A DNA stretch of 64,000 nucleotides from NCBI GenBank assembly GCA_002729695.1, contig PBYQ01000002.1:103170-167169 (forward strand), given 5' to 3'. Positions 24,383 through 60,172 of this stretch are shown here, piece by piece; position 1 is the first letter of the stretch, and every line of letters begins with the position of its first letter. The position numbers and the translations under genes were made by a program. Below the pieces are notes generated by a model. The model was not told where the DNA came from. It ran no database searches and was given only the letters and a program-made list of their open reading frames with translations. This DNA comes from Citromicrobium sp. (GTDB lineage Bacteria; Pseudomonadota; Alphaproteobacteria; Sphingomonadales; Sphingomonadaceae).

Positions 24383-27300
24383 ATGAACTTCCGCAACATC
24401 TCCGCATGGTCGATCCGTAACCCCGTCATTCCGCTGGTGTTTTTCACCGCGCTGCTGTTCGCTGGCCTGCTCAGCTTCTGGCAGATGGACGTGGTCAACA
24501 ACCCGGAGATCGAATTCCCGGCAGTCAACGTCAACATCTCGCAGCCCGGCGCAGCGCCGACCGAGATCGAGAACCAGATAACCCAGCTGGTCGAATCCGC
24601 CGTCCGCTCGATCAATGGCGTAAAAACCATCAACTCGACCGCTTCGGAGGGGAATTCCAGCACCTTCATCGAATTCGAGATCGGGACCGATCCCGACGAT
24701 GCCGTCTCGGAAGTGACCAACGCGATCAACACGGTGCGCGGGTCGCTGCCCGACGGTATTCTCGAACCGCGCGTTTCCAAGCAGGAAATCTCGGGCGGCT
24801 TCCTGGGCATCTACGCGGTCGAAGCCGATGACATGACGCTCGAACAGCTGAGCTGGTTTATCGACGACGTCGTCGCGAAGCGATTGCTGGGCGTCGAAGG
24901 CATGGCCGAGGTCAATCGCTTCGCCGGGGTCAATCGCGAAATCGAGGTGATCCTCGATCCGGCAAAAATCCAGTCTTACGGCGTGACCGCGAGCCAGCTG
25001 AACAGCGTGCTGCGGCAGAACAACCTGAACGCGGCCGGTGGTGCAGCCGAGGTCGGCGGGACGCGCCAGTCGGTGCGCGTGCTCGGCAATAGTCAGGATG
25101 CCTACGCGCTTTCGCAGCAGCAGATCCAGCTCGGTGACGGGCGCACGGTCAAGCTTGCGGACGTAGCCACCGTACGCGACGGATTTTCCGAGCAGGACTC
25201 GATCAGCAAGGTTCGTGACAAGGAAGTCGTCAATTTCGCGATGTCGCGCGCAAAGGGCGCGTCCGACGTATCGACCTTCCATTCCGCACTCGAGGAGATC
25301 GAGAAGATCGAAGCGGAAAACCCCGGTGTGCGCTTCATCCAGCTGTTCAACACGGTGAAGTACACCGAGGAACAGTACGAAAGCTCGATGGCGATGATGA
25401 TCGAGGGCGCGCTGCTCGCGGTAGTGGTGGTCTTCTTCTTCCTGCGCGACTGGCGCGCGACCTTCATCTCCGCCGTCGCGATCCCGCTCTCGGCGATCCC
25501 GACCTTCTGGTTCATGGACCTGCTCGGGTTCAACCTGAACTCCCTTTCGCTGCTGGCATTGGCACTGGTGGCGGGGGTGCTGGTCGACGATGCGATCGTG
25601 GAGATCGAGAACATCGTCAGACACATGCGAATGGGCAAGAACGCCTATCAGGCGTCGATCGACGCGGCGGACGAGATCGGGCTGCCGGTGGTCGCGACCA
25701 GTTTCTGCATCGTCGCGGTGTTCCTGCCCGTTGGCCTGATGCCGGGCATTTCCGGCCAGTTTTTCAAGAACTTCGGGATCACCGTGGTGATCGCGGTGCT
25801 GATGTCTCTGGCGGTGGCACGCATGATCACGCCAATGCTGGCGGCCTACTTCCTCAAGTCCAAGGGCCATGCCAGCCATGGCGAAGGCCCAGTGATGGAC
25901 CGCTACATGGGCATCCTCCACTGGTCGCTGGAACGCGGCAAGATGATGCGCCGTCGCGACGGTATCGAACCGCCGAAAACGCGCTTCCTCTACATGATCC
26001 TACTGCTGGCCACGATCCTGCTGCTGATCGCGATTACGGGCGGGGTGTTCTTCGTTGCGAACCAGATGATCGGCGGCCTGGGCCTGGCCCAAGCGGCGGG
26101 CAATGCCGTCGCGTCTTCACCGGAATCGGTCGCGGGAACGTTCTACAGCCGCATCGTCGGCATCGCGCAACTGGCGGTTGCAGCCGTCCTCGCATTCGCG
26201 GCCGGTTGGATCGTGCTCAAGCTGTTCGGCCTCCTCGCGGGAATCTTCGGCAGGCGGATGCGCGAAGTCTGGCGCTATCTGGAAGCGCGCTTCTACGATC
26301 ATCGCGTATGGATGCTGATGGTCGGATATTTCTCGCTCCTGCTAACGATCCAGCTGTTCATGAACGTGCCCGCGCAATTCCAGCCGCTGGTCGATAGCGA
26401 CAACAGCCAGGTCCAGATCGAGATGGTACCCGGCACCACGCTCGAAGATACCGAGCGGGTGGCCGACCGGGTCGCCGCACTCCTCTATCAGCAGCCCGAG
26501 GTCGAGCGCGCGCTTGAACGGGTACGGATGGGTAGCGCGACGCTCTACGTTTCGCTGTCGCCCGACCGTGAGCGAACCTCGATCCAGTTCGAGCGTCAGC
26601 TGGCACCCGAGCTGGCGAAGATCCCCGATGCCCGCGTGCGCTTCCAGTCGCAGGGCGGCGGTTTCGGGAGCGGGCGCGACATCACCGTGATGCTCGCCGG
26701 CTCCAACCCCGAAGTGTTGCAGGATACCGCCTCGCAGCTGGTCGAACAGATGAAGGGGCTCGATACGCTGGTTGCGCCGCGGATCGAGGCCGATCTCAAC
26801 CGGCCCGAACTCATCATCACGCCGCGCCCCGATTTGGCCGCCGATCTCGGGGTCTCGACCGTCGCGCTCAGCCAGACGATCCGTATCGCCACGCTGGGCG
26901 AGATCGACCAGAGCGCGGCCAAGTTCTCGCTGTCCGACCGCCAGATTCCGATCCGCGTCAAGCTGCCCGAAACCTCGCGCGAAAGCCTGACTACGATCGA
27001 GAACCTGCCCGTGCCCACATTGCGTGGCGGCACCGTGCCACTTTCGCGCGTTGCCGACATCAGCTTCGGGTCGGGACCGACGGCGATCCAGCGGTACAAC
27101 CAGAGCCGTCGCATCCTGGTCGGAGCTGACCTTGCACAGGGCGTCGTCAGCGGCACCGCGCGTGAACAGATCGATGCTCTTCCGGCTCTTCAGGATCTGC
27201 CACAGGGCGTCACGCGCGATGCCGTGGGTGACGAGCAGTGGCAGCAGGAGCTGGTAACCAGCCTGATCTACGCGGTCATCTCTGGCGTGTTGCTCGTGTT

Positions 27301-27858
27301 CGCGGTGCTGGTCCTGCTGTACAAGCGCCTGATGAGCCCGCTGGTGAACATGACCAGCCTCGCCCTGGCGCCGCTGGGCGGGATCTTCCTCGTCTGGCTG
27401 GTCGGCCAACCGCAATCGATGCCGGTCTATATCGGCGTGCTCTTGTTGCTGGGGTCGTGTCGAAGAACTCGATCCTTCTGATCGACTTCGCGATCGAGGC
27501 GATGGCCGAGGGGCGCGACAAGATGGACGCGATTCTCGACGCTGGTCACAAGCGTGCCCAGCCGATCGTGATGACGACCTTCGCGATGACCGCCGGGATG
27601 ATCCCGACCGCGCTTTCGGGTGTGCTCGGATCGGGCGATGGCGCATGGCGCGCCCCGATGGGCACGATGGTCATCGGCGGCCTGGTGGTTTCGACCCTGC
27701 TCACCCTGTTGATCGTGCCGGCCGGTTTCAGCCTTGCAGACGGGTTCGAGAAGCGCGTCGGCCCATGGCTGCGCGATCGTGTGCTCAGCTATCGTCCAGG
27801 CGACGACACGAACGCCGGGCATCGCCACGGTGAGGGTGAGGCTGCCCCGGCCGAGTGA
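24383..27858 (+). pseudogene. RND-family efflux permease, frameshifted near 27451
   Basis: Reads as a heavy-metal/multidrug RND permease. NPVIPLVFFTALL starts the first helix, and VLVDDAIVEIENI carries the helix-4 acidic pair needed for proton transfer. The frame ends early at 27481 in unrelated residues. Adding one G to the run GGGG at 27451-27454 restores ILLLGVVSKNSILLIDF, the highly conserved helix-11 region, and continues in the shifted frame to 27858 for a total near 1158 residues. That is about 110 more than usual, because two extra hydrophobic segments lie between helices 6 and 7 (about 530-630). The lesion may be a homopolymer sequencing error. The DUF445 gene start overlaps the restored stop, evidence that the long frame is the native one. 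Confidence 0.85.
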
Positions 27859-52859: not shown

Positions 52860-53282
52860 ATGCGCCTCAGCAACCTCGCCGACTATGCCATCGTCATCAT
52901 GGCTGCGACCGCACGCAAGTGCGGCGGCGGGCGCGTGTCGGCGGCCGATCTGGCGCAGGAAACGGGCATTCCGGTGCCGACCGCGCAGAAGATCGTCAGC
53001 AAGCTGAGCGCTGCCGGCCTGCTGCGCGCCACGCGCGGCGCGGGTGGCGGGCTGCAGCTCGCCCGTCCTGCCGCCGCGATCAGCATGGCGGATATTGTCG
53101 AGGCAATCGAAGGCCCCATCGCGCTCGTCACCTGTATCGACACCGGCGATTGCGCGGTCGATCACGAATGCACCGTCAAGCCGCACTGGCCCGTGGTCAA
53201 CGCCGCGGTGCGCGGCGCATTGGCCGACGTGTCGCTTGCGAAAATTGCAGGCTCCGCACCTGCGCAGAAAGAATTGGCATGA
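52860..53282 (+). CDS. Rrf2-family regulator of the SUF operon
   Basis: 140 residues. Winged helix (about 1-75) with [11 protein letters not shown] and [20 protein letters not shown], then a dimer helix, then cysteines C92, C98 and C104 in the same spacing as the [2Fe-2S] ligands of IscR. A histidine (H109) follows in VKPHW, two residues later than the IscR ligand. It likely senses iron-sulfur status and represses or activates sufB and downstream genes. First gene of the operon and divergent from pyrD. Overlaps sufB start as ATGA. Confidence 0.9.
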
Positions 53283-54772
53283 ACGAAACCATCGACCTCA
53301 AGAACCCCGAGCAGGATCGGGAAGCCCGGGAAGCCGCCGCCAAGGCCGCCGATTACGAGTTCGGCTGGCATTCGGAAATCGACACCGAATACGCGCCCAA
53401 GGGCCTGTCGGAAGACACGGTCAGGTTCATCTCGGCCAAGAAGAAAGAGCCCGAGTGGATGCTCGAATGGCGGCTCAAGGCGTACCGCAAATGGCTCACC
53501 ATGACCGAGCCGGACTGGGCGAAGCTGGGCTATCCCGAGATCGATTACCAGGACGCGTACTACTACGCCGCGCCCAAGAAGAAGGAAGAGCTCGAAAGCC
53601 TCGACGAGCTCGATCCGGACATCAAGTCGGTCTACGACAAGCTGGGCATTCCGCTGGCGGAGCAGGAAGTGCTCGCCGGGGTGAAGGGCGCGCGCAAGGT
53701 TGCGGTGGATGCGGTGTTCGACAGCGTCAGCGTCGCCACCACCTTCCGCGAAGAGCTCGAAAAGGCCGGCGTCATCTTCCGCTCGATCTCCGAAGCGATC
53801 CGCGAATATCCCGATCTGGTGAAGAAGTGGCTGGGCAAGGTCGTGCCGCAGAACGACAACTACTTCGCCTGCCTCAACAGCGCGGTCTTTTCCGACGGGA
53901 CCATCGTCTACATCCCCGAAGGCACGCGCTGCCCGATGGAGCTATCGACCTATTTCCGCATCAATGCGGAGAATACCGGGCAGTTCGAACGCACGCTGAT
54001 CGTTGCCGAAAAGGGCAGCTACGTCAGCTACCTCGAAGGCTGCACCGCGCCGATGCGAGACGAGAACCAGCTGCACGCCGCCGTGGTCGAGCTGGTCGCG
54101 ATGGACGATGCCGAGATCAAGTATTCGACCGTGTAGAACTGGTATCCCGGCAACTCCGAGGGCGTCGGCGGGATCTATAATTTCGTCACCAAGCGTGGCC
54201 TCTGCCAGGGCGCGCGCAGCAAGATCAGCTGGACGCAGGTCGAAACCGGCTCTGCGGTGACGTGGAAGTATCCGAGCTGCGTGCTGAATGGTGAAAACAG
54301 CGTGGGTGAGTTCTACTCGGTCGCGGTCACCAACAACCACCAGCAGGCCGATACCGGGACCAAGATGATCCACAACGGCAAGGGCAGCCGCTCGACGATC
54401 ATCTCCAAGGGGATCAGCGCCGGGCAGAGCAGCAACACCTATCGCGGGCTGGTCCGCGTGGCCGCCAATGCCGAGGGCGTGCGCAACCGCACGGAATGCG
54501 ATTCGCTGCTGCTGGGCGACAAGTGCGGCGCGCACACTGTGCCCTATATCGAGGTGAAGAACCCCACCGCGCAGATCGAGCATGAGGCGACAACCAGCAA
54601 GATTTCCGACGACCAGCTGTTCTACGCGCAGCAGCGCGGGCTGGACGAGGAAGCGGCGATCGCGCTGATCGTCAACGGCTTCGCCAAGGAAGTGCTGAAA
54701 GAGCTGCCGATGGAATTCGCGGTCGAGGCGCAGAAGCTGCTGGCGATTTCGCTCGAGGGGAGTGTGGGGTGA
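53279..54772 (+). pseudogene. sufB: Fe-S scaffold SufB with an in-frame TAG at codon 286
   Basis: Start ATG overlaps the regulator stop. Reading through the TAG (54134-54136), the frame encodes 497 residues, near the E. coli length of 495, with [12 protein letters not shown]-like segments, [15 protein letters not shown], then IKYSTV-stop-NWYPGN, and the later [18 protein letters not shown] and the C-terminal [11 protein letters not shown]. Other SufB proteins have glutamine (CAG or CAA) at the TAG site, so one C-to-T change explains it. SufB is the cluster scaffold of SufBC2D, normally essential in bacteria with only SUF. The sequence either has an error, or the gene is disabled, or the stop is suppressed. 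TAG is a genuine stop for at least six other genes here. Confidence 0.9.
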
Positions 54773-56500: not shown

Positions 56501-57250
56501 ATGCTCCAGATCGACAACCTCCACGCCGAAATCGACGGCAAGAAAATCCTCAACGGCCTCACGCTCAGCGTGAACGCGGGCGAGGTACACGCCATCATGG
56601 GCCCCAACGGCGCGGGCAAGTCGACGCTTGCCTATGTGCTCGGCGGGCGGCCTGGTTACGAAGTGACCGAGGGTTCGGTGTTCTTCCGCGGCGAAGACCT
56701 GCTGGCGATGGACCCGCACGAACGCGCGGCGGCAGGCCTCTTCCTCGGCTTCCAGTATCCGGTCGAAATCCCCGGCGTCTCCAATATCCAGTTCCTGCGC
56801 GAAGCGCTCAACGCACAGCGCCGCGCTCGCGGCGAAGAGGCGATGACCGGGGGCGATTTCCTCAAGCTCGCCAAGGAGAAGGCCGGGCTGCTCAAGCTCG
56901 ACATGGAGATGCTCAAGCGCAACGTGAACGTCGGCTTCTCGGGCGGCGAGAAAAAGCGCGCCGAGATGGTCCAGATGGGCATCCTCGACCCGTGCTTCGC
57001 CGTGCTGGACGAGACCGACAGCGGGCTCGACATCGATGCGTTGCGCGTCGTGGGCGACGGGATCAACGCGATCATGCGGCAGCCCGACAAGGGCGTGCTG
57101 CTGATCACGCACTACCAGCGGCTGCTCGATGTGGTCGAACCGACCCACGTCTCGATCCTGTCCAAGGGCCGCATCGTGAAGACCGGCGGGCCGGAACTTG
57201 CCGCCGATCTGGAGCGCGAAGGCTACGACGCCGTCATGGAGAACGCATGA
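56501..57250 (+). CDS. sufC: SUF ATPase SufC
   Basis: 249 residues. ABC ATPase: Walker A GPNGAGKST (33-41), signature FSGGEKKRAEM (about 147), Walker B AVLDETDSGLDIDAL (about 168-182) with Asp-Glu, and a histidine switch in LITHY. It powers the SufB-SufD scaffold during cluster assembly. Start is two bases after the exported-protein gene; stop overlaps sufD as ATGA. Confidence 0.97.
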   Translation: MLQIDNLHAEIDGKKILNGLTLSVNAGEVHAIMGPNGAGKSTLAYVLGGRPGYEVTEGSVFFRGEDLLAMDPHERAAAGLFLGFQYPVEIPGVSNIQFLREALNAQRRARGEEAMTGGDFLKLAKEKAGLLKLDMEMLKRNVNVGFSGGEKKRAEMVQMGILDPCFAVLDETDSGLDIDALRVVGDGINAIMRQPDKGVLLITHYQRLLDVVEPTHVSILSKGRIVKTGGPELAADLEREGYDAVMENA

Positions 57251-58008
57251 CCGAGAGCATTCTCCTCCCCACCCGCAAGGACGAAGCCTGGCGCTATTCG
57301 GATATCGAGGCGTTGCAGGACAGCGCATCCGACACGTTCGAGGCGTGGGAAGACGTCCGCGTGGCCGAAGGCGAGAGCTGGTCCGACCTGATCGTGATCG
57401 ACGGTGCGGATGGCTTGCAGATGCGCCGTCTGCGAATCATGCTGGAAAAGGGCGCGCGCGCCGAACTCGCGGCGCTGGTTGCCGGTGGTCAGCTCGGGCG
57501 GCTGGAAGTCGTGGTGACGCTGGCCGAAGGCGCGCATTTCGAGTTGGGCGGAATCACGCTGGGCGGTGGCGACACCACGCGCGAAATCGTCACCCGGCTG
57601 GCGCACGATCACCCCGGCGCGACCAGCAACCAGACCGTGCGCTCCGTCCACTGGGGCAAGGGCACGGGCAATTTCCTCGGCCGGATCGACGTTGCGCGCG
57701 ATGCGCAGAAGACCGACGCCGCGCAGAGCTTCAAGGGCCTGCTGTTGGAAAAGGGCGCGAGCGTGAACAGCGTACCGCAGCTCGAGATTTTCGCCGACGA
57801 CGTGCAGTGCGCGCACGGCGCGAGCGTGGGCCAGCTGGACGAGTCCGCGCGCTTCTACATGGCCGCGCGCGGCCTTCCGCCCGAAACCATCCGGCGCCTG
57901 CTGGTGCAGGCCTTCATCGGCGATGCAACGCGTGAGCTGGCCGACGAGGCCACGCGCGAAACGCTGCTGGAGAAGGCGCTCGCCAAGCTGGAAGAGCGCG
58001 ACGCATGA
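57247..58008 (+). CDS. sufD: SufD, SUF scaffold subunit (short form)
   Basis: 253 residues, much shorter than the 423 of E. coli, lacking most of the N-terminal domain, though it begins with an RKDEAWRYSDIEAL block. The core is the right-handed beta-helix from about 90 to 200, with SVHWGKGTGNFLGRIDV and ASVNSVPQLEIFADDVQCAHGASVG; the last segment holds the histidine equivalent to a functionally important one in E. coli SufD. The C-terminal helical part is normal. Coupled to sufC and sufS. Confidence 0.93.
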   Translation: MTESILLPTRKDEAWRYSDIEALQDSASDTFEAWEDVRVAEGESWSDLIVIDGADGLQMRRLRIMLEKGARAELAALVAGGQLGRLEVVVTLAEGAHFELGGITLGGGDTTREIVTRLAHDHPGATSNQTVRSVHWGKGTGNFLGRIDVARDAQKTDAAQSFKGLLLEKGASVNSVPQLEIFADDVQCAHGASVGQLDESARFYMAARGLPPETIRRLLVQAFIGDATRELADEATRETLLEKALAKLEERDA

Positions 58009-59213
58009 CCGAGCAACTCAAGATTTCCGCCTCCGCGGCGACGCCGGGCGACAAGGCCGAATTCCCCGGCATGTTCACCGAGGATGGCACGCCGTGGCAC
58101 TATCTGGACAGCGCCGCGACCGCGCAGAAGCCGCAGATCGTGCTCGATTCGGTCGCTTGGGCGCTGGGCGAGGGCTACGCGACCGTCCATCGCGGGGTCT
58201 ATTCCCGCTCCGCCCGGATGACGATGGGCTACGAGGCGGCGCGCCGCAGGGTTGCCGCCTTCATCAGCGCCCCGCAGGACGAGCTTATCTTCACCCGCGG
58301 CGCGACCGAGGCGATCAATCTCGTCGCCTATTCCTACCCGAAGAAGGGCCGCGTGCTGCTGAGCCAGCTGGAGCATCATTCGAACATCGTGCCGTGGCAG
58401 CTTGCGGGCTGGCAGGTCGATGTCTGCCCGCTGACCGAAGACGGCCGGATCGATCTGGACGCGGCGGAAAAGATGCTCACGCCCGAGCACGAAATGGTCG
58501 CCTTCGCGCATGTCTCCAACGTGCTCGGCTCGGTGGTCGACGCGCCGCGCGCGGCGGAGCTGGCACATTCGGTGGGCGCGAAGCTGCTGCTCGACGGGTG
58601 CCAGGCCGCGCCGCGCCTGCCGGTGTTCGTCGACGAGATCGGCTGCGATTTCTACGCGATGAGCGCGCACAAGATGTACGGACCGACCGGCGTCGGCGCG
58701 CTGTGGGGCCGTAAGGAACTGCTCGATTCGATGCCGCCCTGGCAGGGTGGCGGATCGATGATCGACAAGGTCACCTTTGCCGAAACCAGCTATGCTCCGC
58801 CGCCCCAGCGGTTCGAGGCGGGCACGCCCGCGATCGCCGAGGCCTATGCCTTTGCGGAAGCTTGCGACTTCATCGACCAGATCGGTCGCGAAGAGATCGA
58901 GGCGCACGAGCGCGCTCTCGTGCGCCAGCTGCGTGAGGAGCTTTCCCGCATCCAGGGCGTGCGCGTGTTCGGGCCCGAAGATGCGCTCGGCATCGTCTCG
59001 TTCGAGCTGCCGGGGGTTCACCCGCACGATCTGGGCACCATATTGGATGAAGAGAACGTGGCGATCCGCGCCGGGCACCATTGCTGCCAGCCGCTGATGG
59101 AGCACCTCGGCGTGCCGGGTACGGCGCGCGCCAGCTTCGGGGTCTATTCCGACGAAGCCGACATCGCCGCGCTGATGCGCGGGATCGACCGAACGCTTAA
59201 GATTTTCGCCTGA
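58005..59213 (+). CDS. sufS: Cysteine desulfurase SufS
   Basis: 402 residues. PLP lysine K223 in SAHKMYGPTG; catalytic cysteine C360 in RAGHHCCQPLM (a second cysteine follows, where most SufS have alanine). HRGVYSRSA and FTRGATEAINLVAYS are intact. It supplies persulfide sulfur to SufB through SufE or SufU; no sufE or sufU is in the window. ATGA overlap with sufD. Confidence 0.95.
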   Translation: MTEQLKISASAATPGDKAEFPGMFTEDGTPWHYLDSAATAQKPQIVLDSVAWALGEGYATVHRGVYSRSARMTMGYEAARRRVAAFISAPQDELIFTRGATEAINLVAYSYPKKGRVLLSQLEHHSNIVPWQLAGWQVDVCPLTEDGRIDLDAAEKMLTPEHEMVAFAHVSNVLGSVVDAPRAAELAHSVGAKLLLDGCQAAPRLPVFVDEIGCDFYAMSAHKMYGPTGVGALWGRKELLDSMPPWQGGGSMIDKVTFAETSYAPPPQRFEAGTPAIAEAYAFAEACDFIDQIGREEIEAHERALVRQLREELSRIQGVRVFGPEDALGIVSFELPGVHPHDLGTILDEENVAIRAGHHCCQPLMEHLGVPGTARASFGVYSDEADIAALMRGIDRTLKIFA

Positions 59214-59218
59214 GAGTA

Positions 59219-59725
59219 ATGACGATGAGCGACGAAGAAAAAGACTACATCGCGGCCCCTTCGCCGACCGAGCAGATGGTCGCGAGCAAACCGCCCCGCG
59301 CGCGCGTGGAAGACGCGGTCGATCCCGATGAGACTGCGGGCGAGAAGTTGGCGCGCAAGCGCGACTATCTCGACGGGTTCCTCAAGAAGAAGCCCGAGGC
59401 GACCGGCGAAACCGGTGCGGGCGGGGCCTTGCAGGAAGCGGTGATCGCTGCGCTCAAGGAAATCTATGACCCCGAAATCCCGGTCAATATCTACGATCTG
59501 GGCCTGATCTACGGCGTCGAAGTCTCCGAGGACAAGGACGTGATCGTCACCATGACGCTCACCACGCCGCACTGCCCGGTGGCCGAATCGATGCCCGCCG
59601 AGGTCGAGATCCGCACTGGCTCGGTGCCCGGCGTGCGCGATGCCGAGGTCAACCTCGTGTGGGACCCGCCCTGGGGCCCGGACAAGATGACCGACGAGGC
59701 GCGCCTCGAACTGGGAATGCTGTGA
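59219..59725 (+). CDS. sufT: SUF-associated DUF59 (SufT-like) protein
   Basis: 168 residues. An acidic/basic N-terminal region (1-65) precedes the DUF59/MIP18 domain. DPEIPVNIYDLGLIYGV and TLTTPHCPVAESMP are the family blocks with the conserved cysteine near 122. Such proteins help mature iron-sulfur proteins. It is five bases after sufS and shares its transcript. Confidence 0.88.
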   Translation: MTMSDEEKDYIAAPSPTEQMVASKPPRARVEDAVDPDETAGEKLARKRDYLDGFLKKKPEATGETGAGGALQEAVIAALKEIYDPEIPVNIYDLGLIYGVEVSEDKDVIVTMTLTTPHCPVAESMPAEVEIRTGSVPGVRDAEVNLVWDPPWGPDKMTDEARLELGML

Positions 59726-59815: not shown

Positions 59816-60172
59816 ATGACTGAAACAAAGATAAGACAACGCCCCGCGGCGGTCAGCCTGACTGAGACTGCCGAGCAGCGCGTGGCCGACCTGATGGCCA
59901 AGGCCCCCGATGACGCTATCGGGGTGAAGCTCTCGACGCCGCGCCGGGGGTGCTCGGGGCTTGCCTATTCGGTCGACTATGTCTCCGAAGAACAGGCCTT
60001 CGACGAGAAGATCGAGACCCCCGGCGGCACCTTCTACATCGACGGCGCGAGCGTGCTCTACCTCGTCGGCAGCGTGATGGACTGGGTGGAGGACGATTTC
60101 TCCGCCGGGTTCGTGTTCGAAAACCCGAATGCCAAGGGCGCCTGCGGCTGCGGCGAGTCCTTCATGGTCTGA
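59816..60172 (+). CDS. sufA: A-type Fe-S carrier SufA
   Basis: 118 residues. Three ligand cysteines are C46 (RRGCSGLAY) and C110 and C112 (GACGCGESF). FYIDGASVLYLVGSVMDW fits the SufA/IscA branch. Transfers clusters to targets. Last SUF gene, 90 bases after sufT with a palindrome between, so it may be less tightly expressed or have a separate promoter. Confidence 0.93.
   Translation: MTETKIRQRPAAVSLTETAEQRVADLMAKAPDDAIGVKLSTPRRGCSGLAYSVDYVSEEQAFDEKIETPGGTFYIDGASVLYLVGSVMDWVEDDFSAGFVFENPNAKGACGCGESFMV

Follow-up and report, generated by a model that had tools for sequence, protein, structure and literature searches.

Suppression or recoding of the amber codon is defined by a tRNA with the anticodon CUA, by loss or change of release factor 1 (RF1), and by the rarity of TAG as a terminator. 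Near-cognate suppression has been described in E. coli lacking RF1, in which Gln and Tyr are inserted at UAG, and for the RF1-restored strain the available part of the same report gives tmRNA-type end products only, with no suppression products (PMC6207430). In E. coli SufB, Gln285 is located at a putative sulfur tunnel and the Q285A variant is reported to be non-functional (2017 Sci Rep, PMC5571166); a review, in the portion available, agrees on both the loss of function and the putative tunnel (PMC6006206).

The window, a stretch of 64,000 nucleotides from a Citromicrobium genome, contains a SUF operon made up of an Rrf2-type regulator, sufB, sufC, a short sufD, sufS, a SufT-like protein and a SufA-type carrier, with several small frames between sufB and sufC. 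The sufB frame runs from an ATG to its natural TGA with a single interruption, a TAG that in the translated frame falls within YSTV-stop-NWYPG. The features are as follows, with profile scores and the corresponding cut-offs in brackets.

52860..53282, + strand, Rrf2-family SUF regulator upstream of sufB (TIGR02944, 117 bits, above 110.65)
53279..54772, + strand, sufB frame, from ATG at 53279 to natural TGA at 54770-54772, one interruption
53279..54133, + strand, sufB 5' part, 285 codons, keeping the Cys254 equivalent
54134..54136, + strand, in-frame TAG, codon 286 of sufB, aligned to E. coli SufB Gln285
54137..54769, + strand, sufB 3' part, 211 codons, holding the Cys405 and Glu434 equivalents
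56501..57250, + strand, sufC (TIGR01978, 334.7 bits, above 212.8)
57247..58008, + strand, sufD, short form of 253 aa (TIGR01981, 165.6 bits, below 222)
58005..59213, + strand, sufS cysteine desulfurase (TIGR01979, 471.9 bits, slightly below 475.1)
59219..59725, + strand, SUF-associated SufT-like protein (TIGR02945, 149.7 bits, above 143.4)
59816..60172, + strand, SufA/IscA-type carrier (TIGR00049, 100.5 bits, above 58.8; SufA profile TIGR01997, 100.7, below 136.2)

With the stop read through, sufB matches the full-length SufB profiles above their cut-offs (NCBIfam TIGR01980, 638.2 bits against 346.4; NF008773, 887.9 bits against 717), and the frame itself is broken at codon 286. Both parts match the SufB profile separately, the 5' part alone scoring 340.7 bits, slightly below the cut-off of 346.4. 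Alignment with PDB chain 5awf_A, counted by hand, places codon 286 at E. coli SufB Gln285; a product ending at the TAG would keep the equivalent of Cys254 and lose those of Cys405 and Glu434. An earlier sequence-only reading of the window had put an in-frame TAG at codon 286 (54134-54136) and had equated the residue with E. coli Gln285 on the sulfur path, and the frame, the alignment and the two publications, as far as their available text goes, agree with it (PMC5571166, PMC6006206).

The same reading had supposed that relatives carry Gln at this site, and this holds in the genus. Each of the ten genus genomes, the present one among them, has one sufB copy over the cut-off; the nine congeners are free of internal stops and all have CAG at the codon. 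An order-wide survey of 147 genomes, again including this one, gave sufB over the cut-off in 142, weaker matches only in three and none in two, and among the over-cut-off matches listed no internal stop occurs except in this genome. The stop is not kept in these relatives, whereas conserved programmed readthrough would keep it.

Beyond the order, the genome_contigs collection was scanned for TAA or TAG at this codon within TVxNWYPG, a scan that covers exact motif matches only and possibly leaves out the window's own record; it gave two matches, L021 and L022. The first (JAFYPV010000111.1, 1785-1787, minus strand) is a TAA at the same Gln codon of sufB in Bacteroides sp. MAG RGIG7312, from water buffalo cecum. 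The second was taken for a chance match, its ORF list holding nothing SufB-like. Plasmid records searched with the sufB-sufC stretch gave eight records, none covering 80% of it, the best match being a Sphingomonas sufB at 81.7%.

The coding sequence on either side of the stop appears well maintained. Of the 273 sufB codons compared with congener G005 before the stop, 41 differ synonymously and 8 non-synonymously; the counts for the 211 codons beyond it are 35 and 2. Synonymous differences also exceed non-synonymous ones on both sides of the stop in the other eight congeners, with at most 28 non-synonymous differences before and 20 after. Across sufB, sufC, sufD and sufS this genome has seven private amino-acid changes in 1,319 columns, the TAG included, while the congeners have 0, 0, 4, 5, 6, 6, 7, 22 and 106 in the same columns. 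A decaying pseudogene is rejected on two grounds: the pattern of differences in the 3' part is purifying, and there is no excess of private changes.

Loss of SufB would be difficult to accommodate in this cell. No second sufB over the cut-off was found in this genome (completeness 93.2), the other match being SufD, and its assembly gave no NifU_N match that would indicate an IscU/NifU-type scaffold; as far as these searches go, the earlier supposition that no second system is present is supported. In another alphaproteobacterium, Zymomonas mobilis, knockdown of the suf transcription unit leads to oxygen-specific fitness defects according to the accessible part of the report (PMC10746277). Since the only over-cut-off sufB is the interrupted one, no NifU_N match is seen, and both the Zymomonas knockdown and E. 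coli Q285A are deleterious, a fixed sufB null should be costly and hard to tolerate, and the gene may be essential in this organism.

The quality of the assembly was also considered. It is a gapped draft of 46 contigs, in which the Pro-TGG and Ala-TGC tRNAs seen in congener G002 were not found (10 of the 42 G002 hits were read for this comparison, namely those whose scores had no counterpart). The Leu(CAA) and Glu(CTC) tRNAs, each one base from CUA, were likewise not seen. A search for small-subunit rRNA, which found none in this genome, counts for little, its control being positive in 9 of 14 genomes and negative in Caulobacter. Two pairs of tRNA-Leu genes of equal score and anticodon lie at or near contig ends (the start of C6 with C29:454-535, and the end of C20 with the start of C26), which suggests overlapping contig ends.

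Five contigs were read at length, and all but C45 contain ambiguous N bases: a single one in C2 (41169) and clusters in C3 (188586-190191), C4 (46515-46606) and C6 (179362-179428), their spacing often in multiples of three. A ligase gene of C3, presumably Mpl-like, is the one gene with a clear frame, and 21 of its 28 N bases fall at third codon positions, a pattern that a mixture of reads from related templates would produce. These features suggest that the record is a metagenome assembly. Congener G002 has no N in the 940 kb of its census and one in a small locus, L101.

The frequency of comparable lesions was assessed in coding-scored genes, with G002 as the sole comparison genome. Four events were listed for this genome in 423 ortholog pairs (133,433 aligned codons), of which two, the sufB TAG and the frameshift of an RND permease gene, are convincing. 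The remaining two were dismissed on inspection by eye: one is a stop close to the end of a 120-residue ORF, the other a frame change ahead of the likely start of the C3 ligase gene. In the reverse direction (414 pairs, 130,523 codons) one event was listed in G002; it had been found with a 120-residue query and was likewise dismissed, which leaves none that convinces. Two lesions against none are too few to prove a raised error rate.

The frameshifted gene encodes an RND-type permease of the AcrB family (about 24383-27831, + strand) with the break at about 27442-27454, 27 kb from the sufB TAG in the same window, and its frame is intact in G002. Its first 1,022 residues match Pfam ACR_tran, while the short segment beyond the break has no match in Pfam. 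A first census, which reported numerous stops together with some frame changes for this genome and two congeners, was discarded on account of counting antisense shadow frames as genes; three of its frame changes came from the comparison with G005, and of the two inspected, that of the RND permease was convincing and the other, in an upstream stretch, was set aside. In a coding-potential scan of 421 kb of this genome sufB was the strongest case, with weaker candidates at C2 141719 and C6 188741 and three in congeners.

The assembly contains the stop, none of the relatives examined shares it, and nothing unusual is apparent in the decoding genes found. It is probable that the TAG is a single-base consensus change in a draft, arising from an error in sequencing or assembly or from a minor or recent strain variant taken up as the consensus, so that the base at 54134 is likely to be wrong or not fixed. 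Most cells of the species would then carry an intact sufB with Gln at codon 286, and the TAG would be without function and have no decoding mechanism behind it. This reading is favoured by the restriction of the TAG to one of ten genus members and to one genome among the listed over-cut-off sufB matches of the 147, by the lack of decay in the 3' part and the cost expected of a fixed null, and by an imperfect assembly (46 contigs, missing tRNAs, N bases) with a second lesion in the same window. Against it stand the small number of lesions (two convincing in 423 pairs), the position of the seven private suf changes inside the congeners' range of 0 to 106, and the N base in the G002 record (L101); furthermore, mixed positions elsewhere are seemingly written as N, and the base at 54134 is not. 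Of the four options offered by the sequence-only reading, those of a sequencing error and of a new mutation remain in play, and the suppressor tRNA and the two half proteins have little or no support.

Second comes a genuine nonsense mutation that arose recently in the sampled lineage, which is possible, if doubtful. SufB would be lost or made only in traces, and the cells would be crippled or would live in conditions that demand few Fe-S clusters. Traces could arise when a near-cognate tRNA, most plausibly tRNA-Gln(CUG), occasionally outcompetes RF1; the corresponding tRNA-Gln(CTG) gene is present and normal (L052), and insertion of Gln and Tyr at UAG has its precedent, in the text available, in the E. 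coli strain lacking RF1 (PMC6207430). The few other lesions in the compared part of the assembly also favour a real mutation. However, prfA, encoding RF1, is intact (487.4 bits, over the cut-off, no stops), so near-cognate readthrough should be slight, in line with the absence of suppression products that the same report, as far as available, gives for E. coli with RF1 restored (PMC6207430). The lack of a NifU_N/IscU scaffold in the assembly likewise weighs against a lineage living without SufB. A further variant, a natural leaky sufB allele in which tRNA-Gln(CUG) decodes UAG at a low level, sustaining Fe-S assembly and tying SUF output to termination efficiency, is very unlikely. Genuine readthrough of the TAG is unlikely, as is a new way of reading the genetic code.

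It is likewise very unlikely that full-length SufB is made through an amber suppressor tRNA whose gene lies outside the assembled sequence and which inserts an amino acid at UAG. The incompleteness of the assembly, from which at least two congener tRNAs are missing and in which the Leu(CAA) and Glu(CTC) tRNAs were not seen, leaves some room for such a gene. Against this, none of the 42 tRNA hits in this incomplete assembly (43 ARAGORN genes in the loci read, all anticodons being read) has the anticodon CUA, with the proviso that an odd pyrrolysine-type tRNA could escape the model, and no change of anticodon is seen in the Gln(CTG), Tyr(GTA), Trp(CCA), Lys(CTT) and Ser(CGA) tRNAs. In 790 kb of this genome TAG terminates 151 of 627 predicted genes, about a quarter, and in 940 kb of G002 it terminates 211 of 799; an earlier, overlapping gene set gave 72 of 290 for this genome. 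A strong suppressor would consequently extend many proteins. After TAG the frame stays open for a median of 37 codons, against 32.5 after TGA and 61 after TAA, so that TAG is not singled out by this measure. Amber recoding across the genome is ruled out by this usage of TAG, the intact RF1 and the lack of a CUA tRNA among the 42 hits; the sequence-only reading had argued to the same effect from six genes ending in TAG in the window (11173, 12884, 29138, 45476, 56498 and 62612), all of which were confirmed.

Re-initiation after the stop to give SufB as two assembling pieces is scarcely credible: although the two parts are intact and match the SufB profile separately, the first 40 codons after the TAG contain no ATG, GTG or TTG, the next usual start lying 40 codons on, so that the second piece would lack the Trp287 equivalent, which falls within this stretch, and none of the nine congeners has a split gene.

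If the TAG were fixed and read through, the locus would serve as a natural experiment on the survival of an important gene despite a stop codon under the ordinary code. Its meaning is mainly that of a warning, in that single-base consensus changes in draft genomes can mimic recoding.

Among known systems, amber suppression and recoding are resembled here in the in-frame UAG at a Gln codon of this sufB; they differ in that no CUA tRNA was found, RF1 is present and TAG ends about a quarter of predicted genes. The sufB of the Bacteroides MAG RGIG7312 is alike in that a TAR stop occupies the same codon and long SufB-like frames flank it, and differs in that the stop is TAA rather than TAG, the organism is a Bacteroides, and the sequence lies on a 3.5 kb contig of a metagenome-assembled genome. 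The gene also resembles the SufB scaffold of the SUF iron-sulfur system (TIGR01980; E. coli SufB, PDB 5awf), with which it shares a full-length match on readthrough, the suf operon context and the conserved residues, and from which it differs in a single in-frame stop at the Gln285 equivalent.
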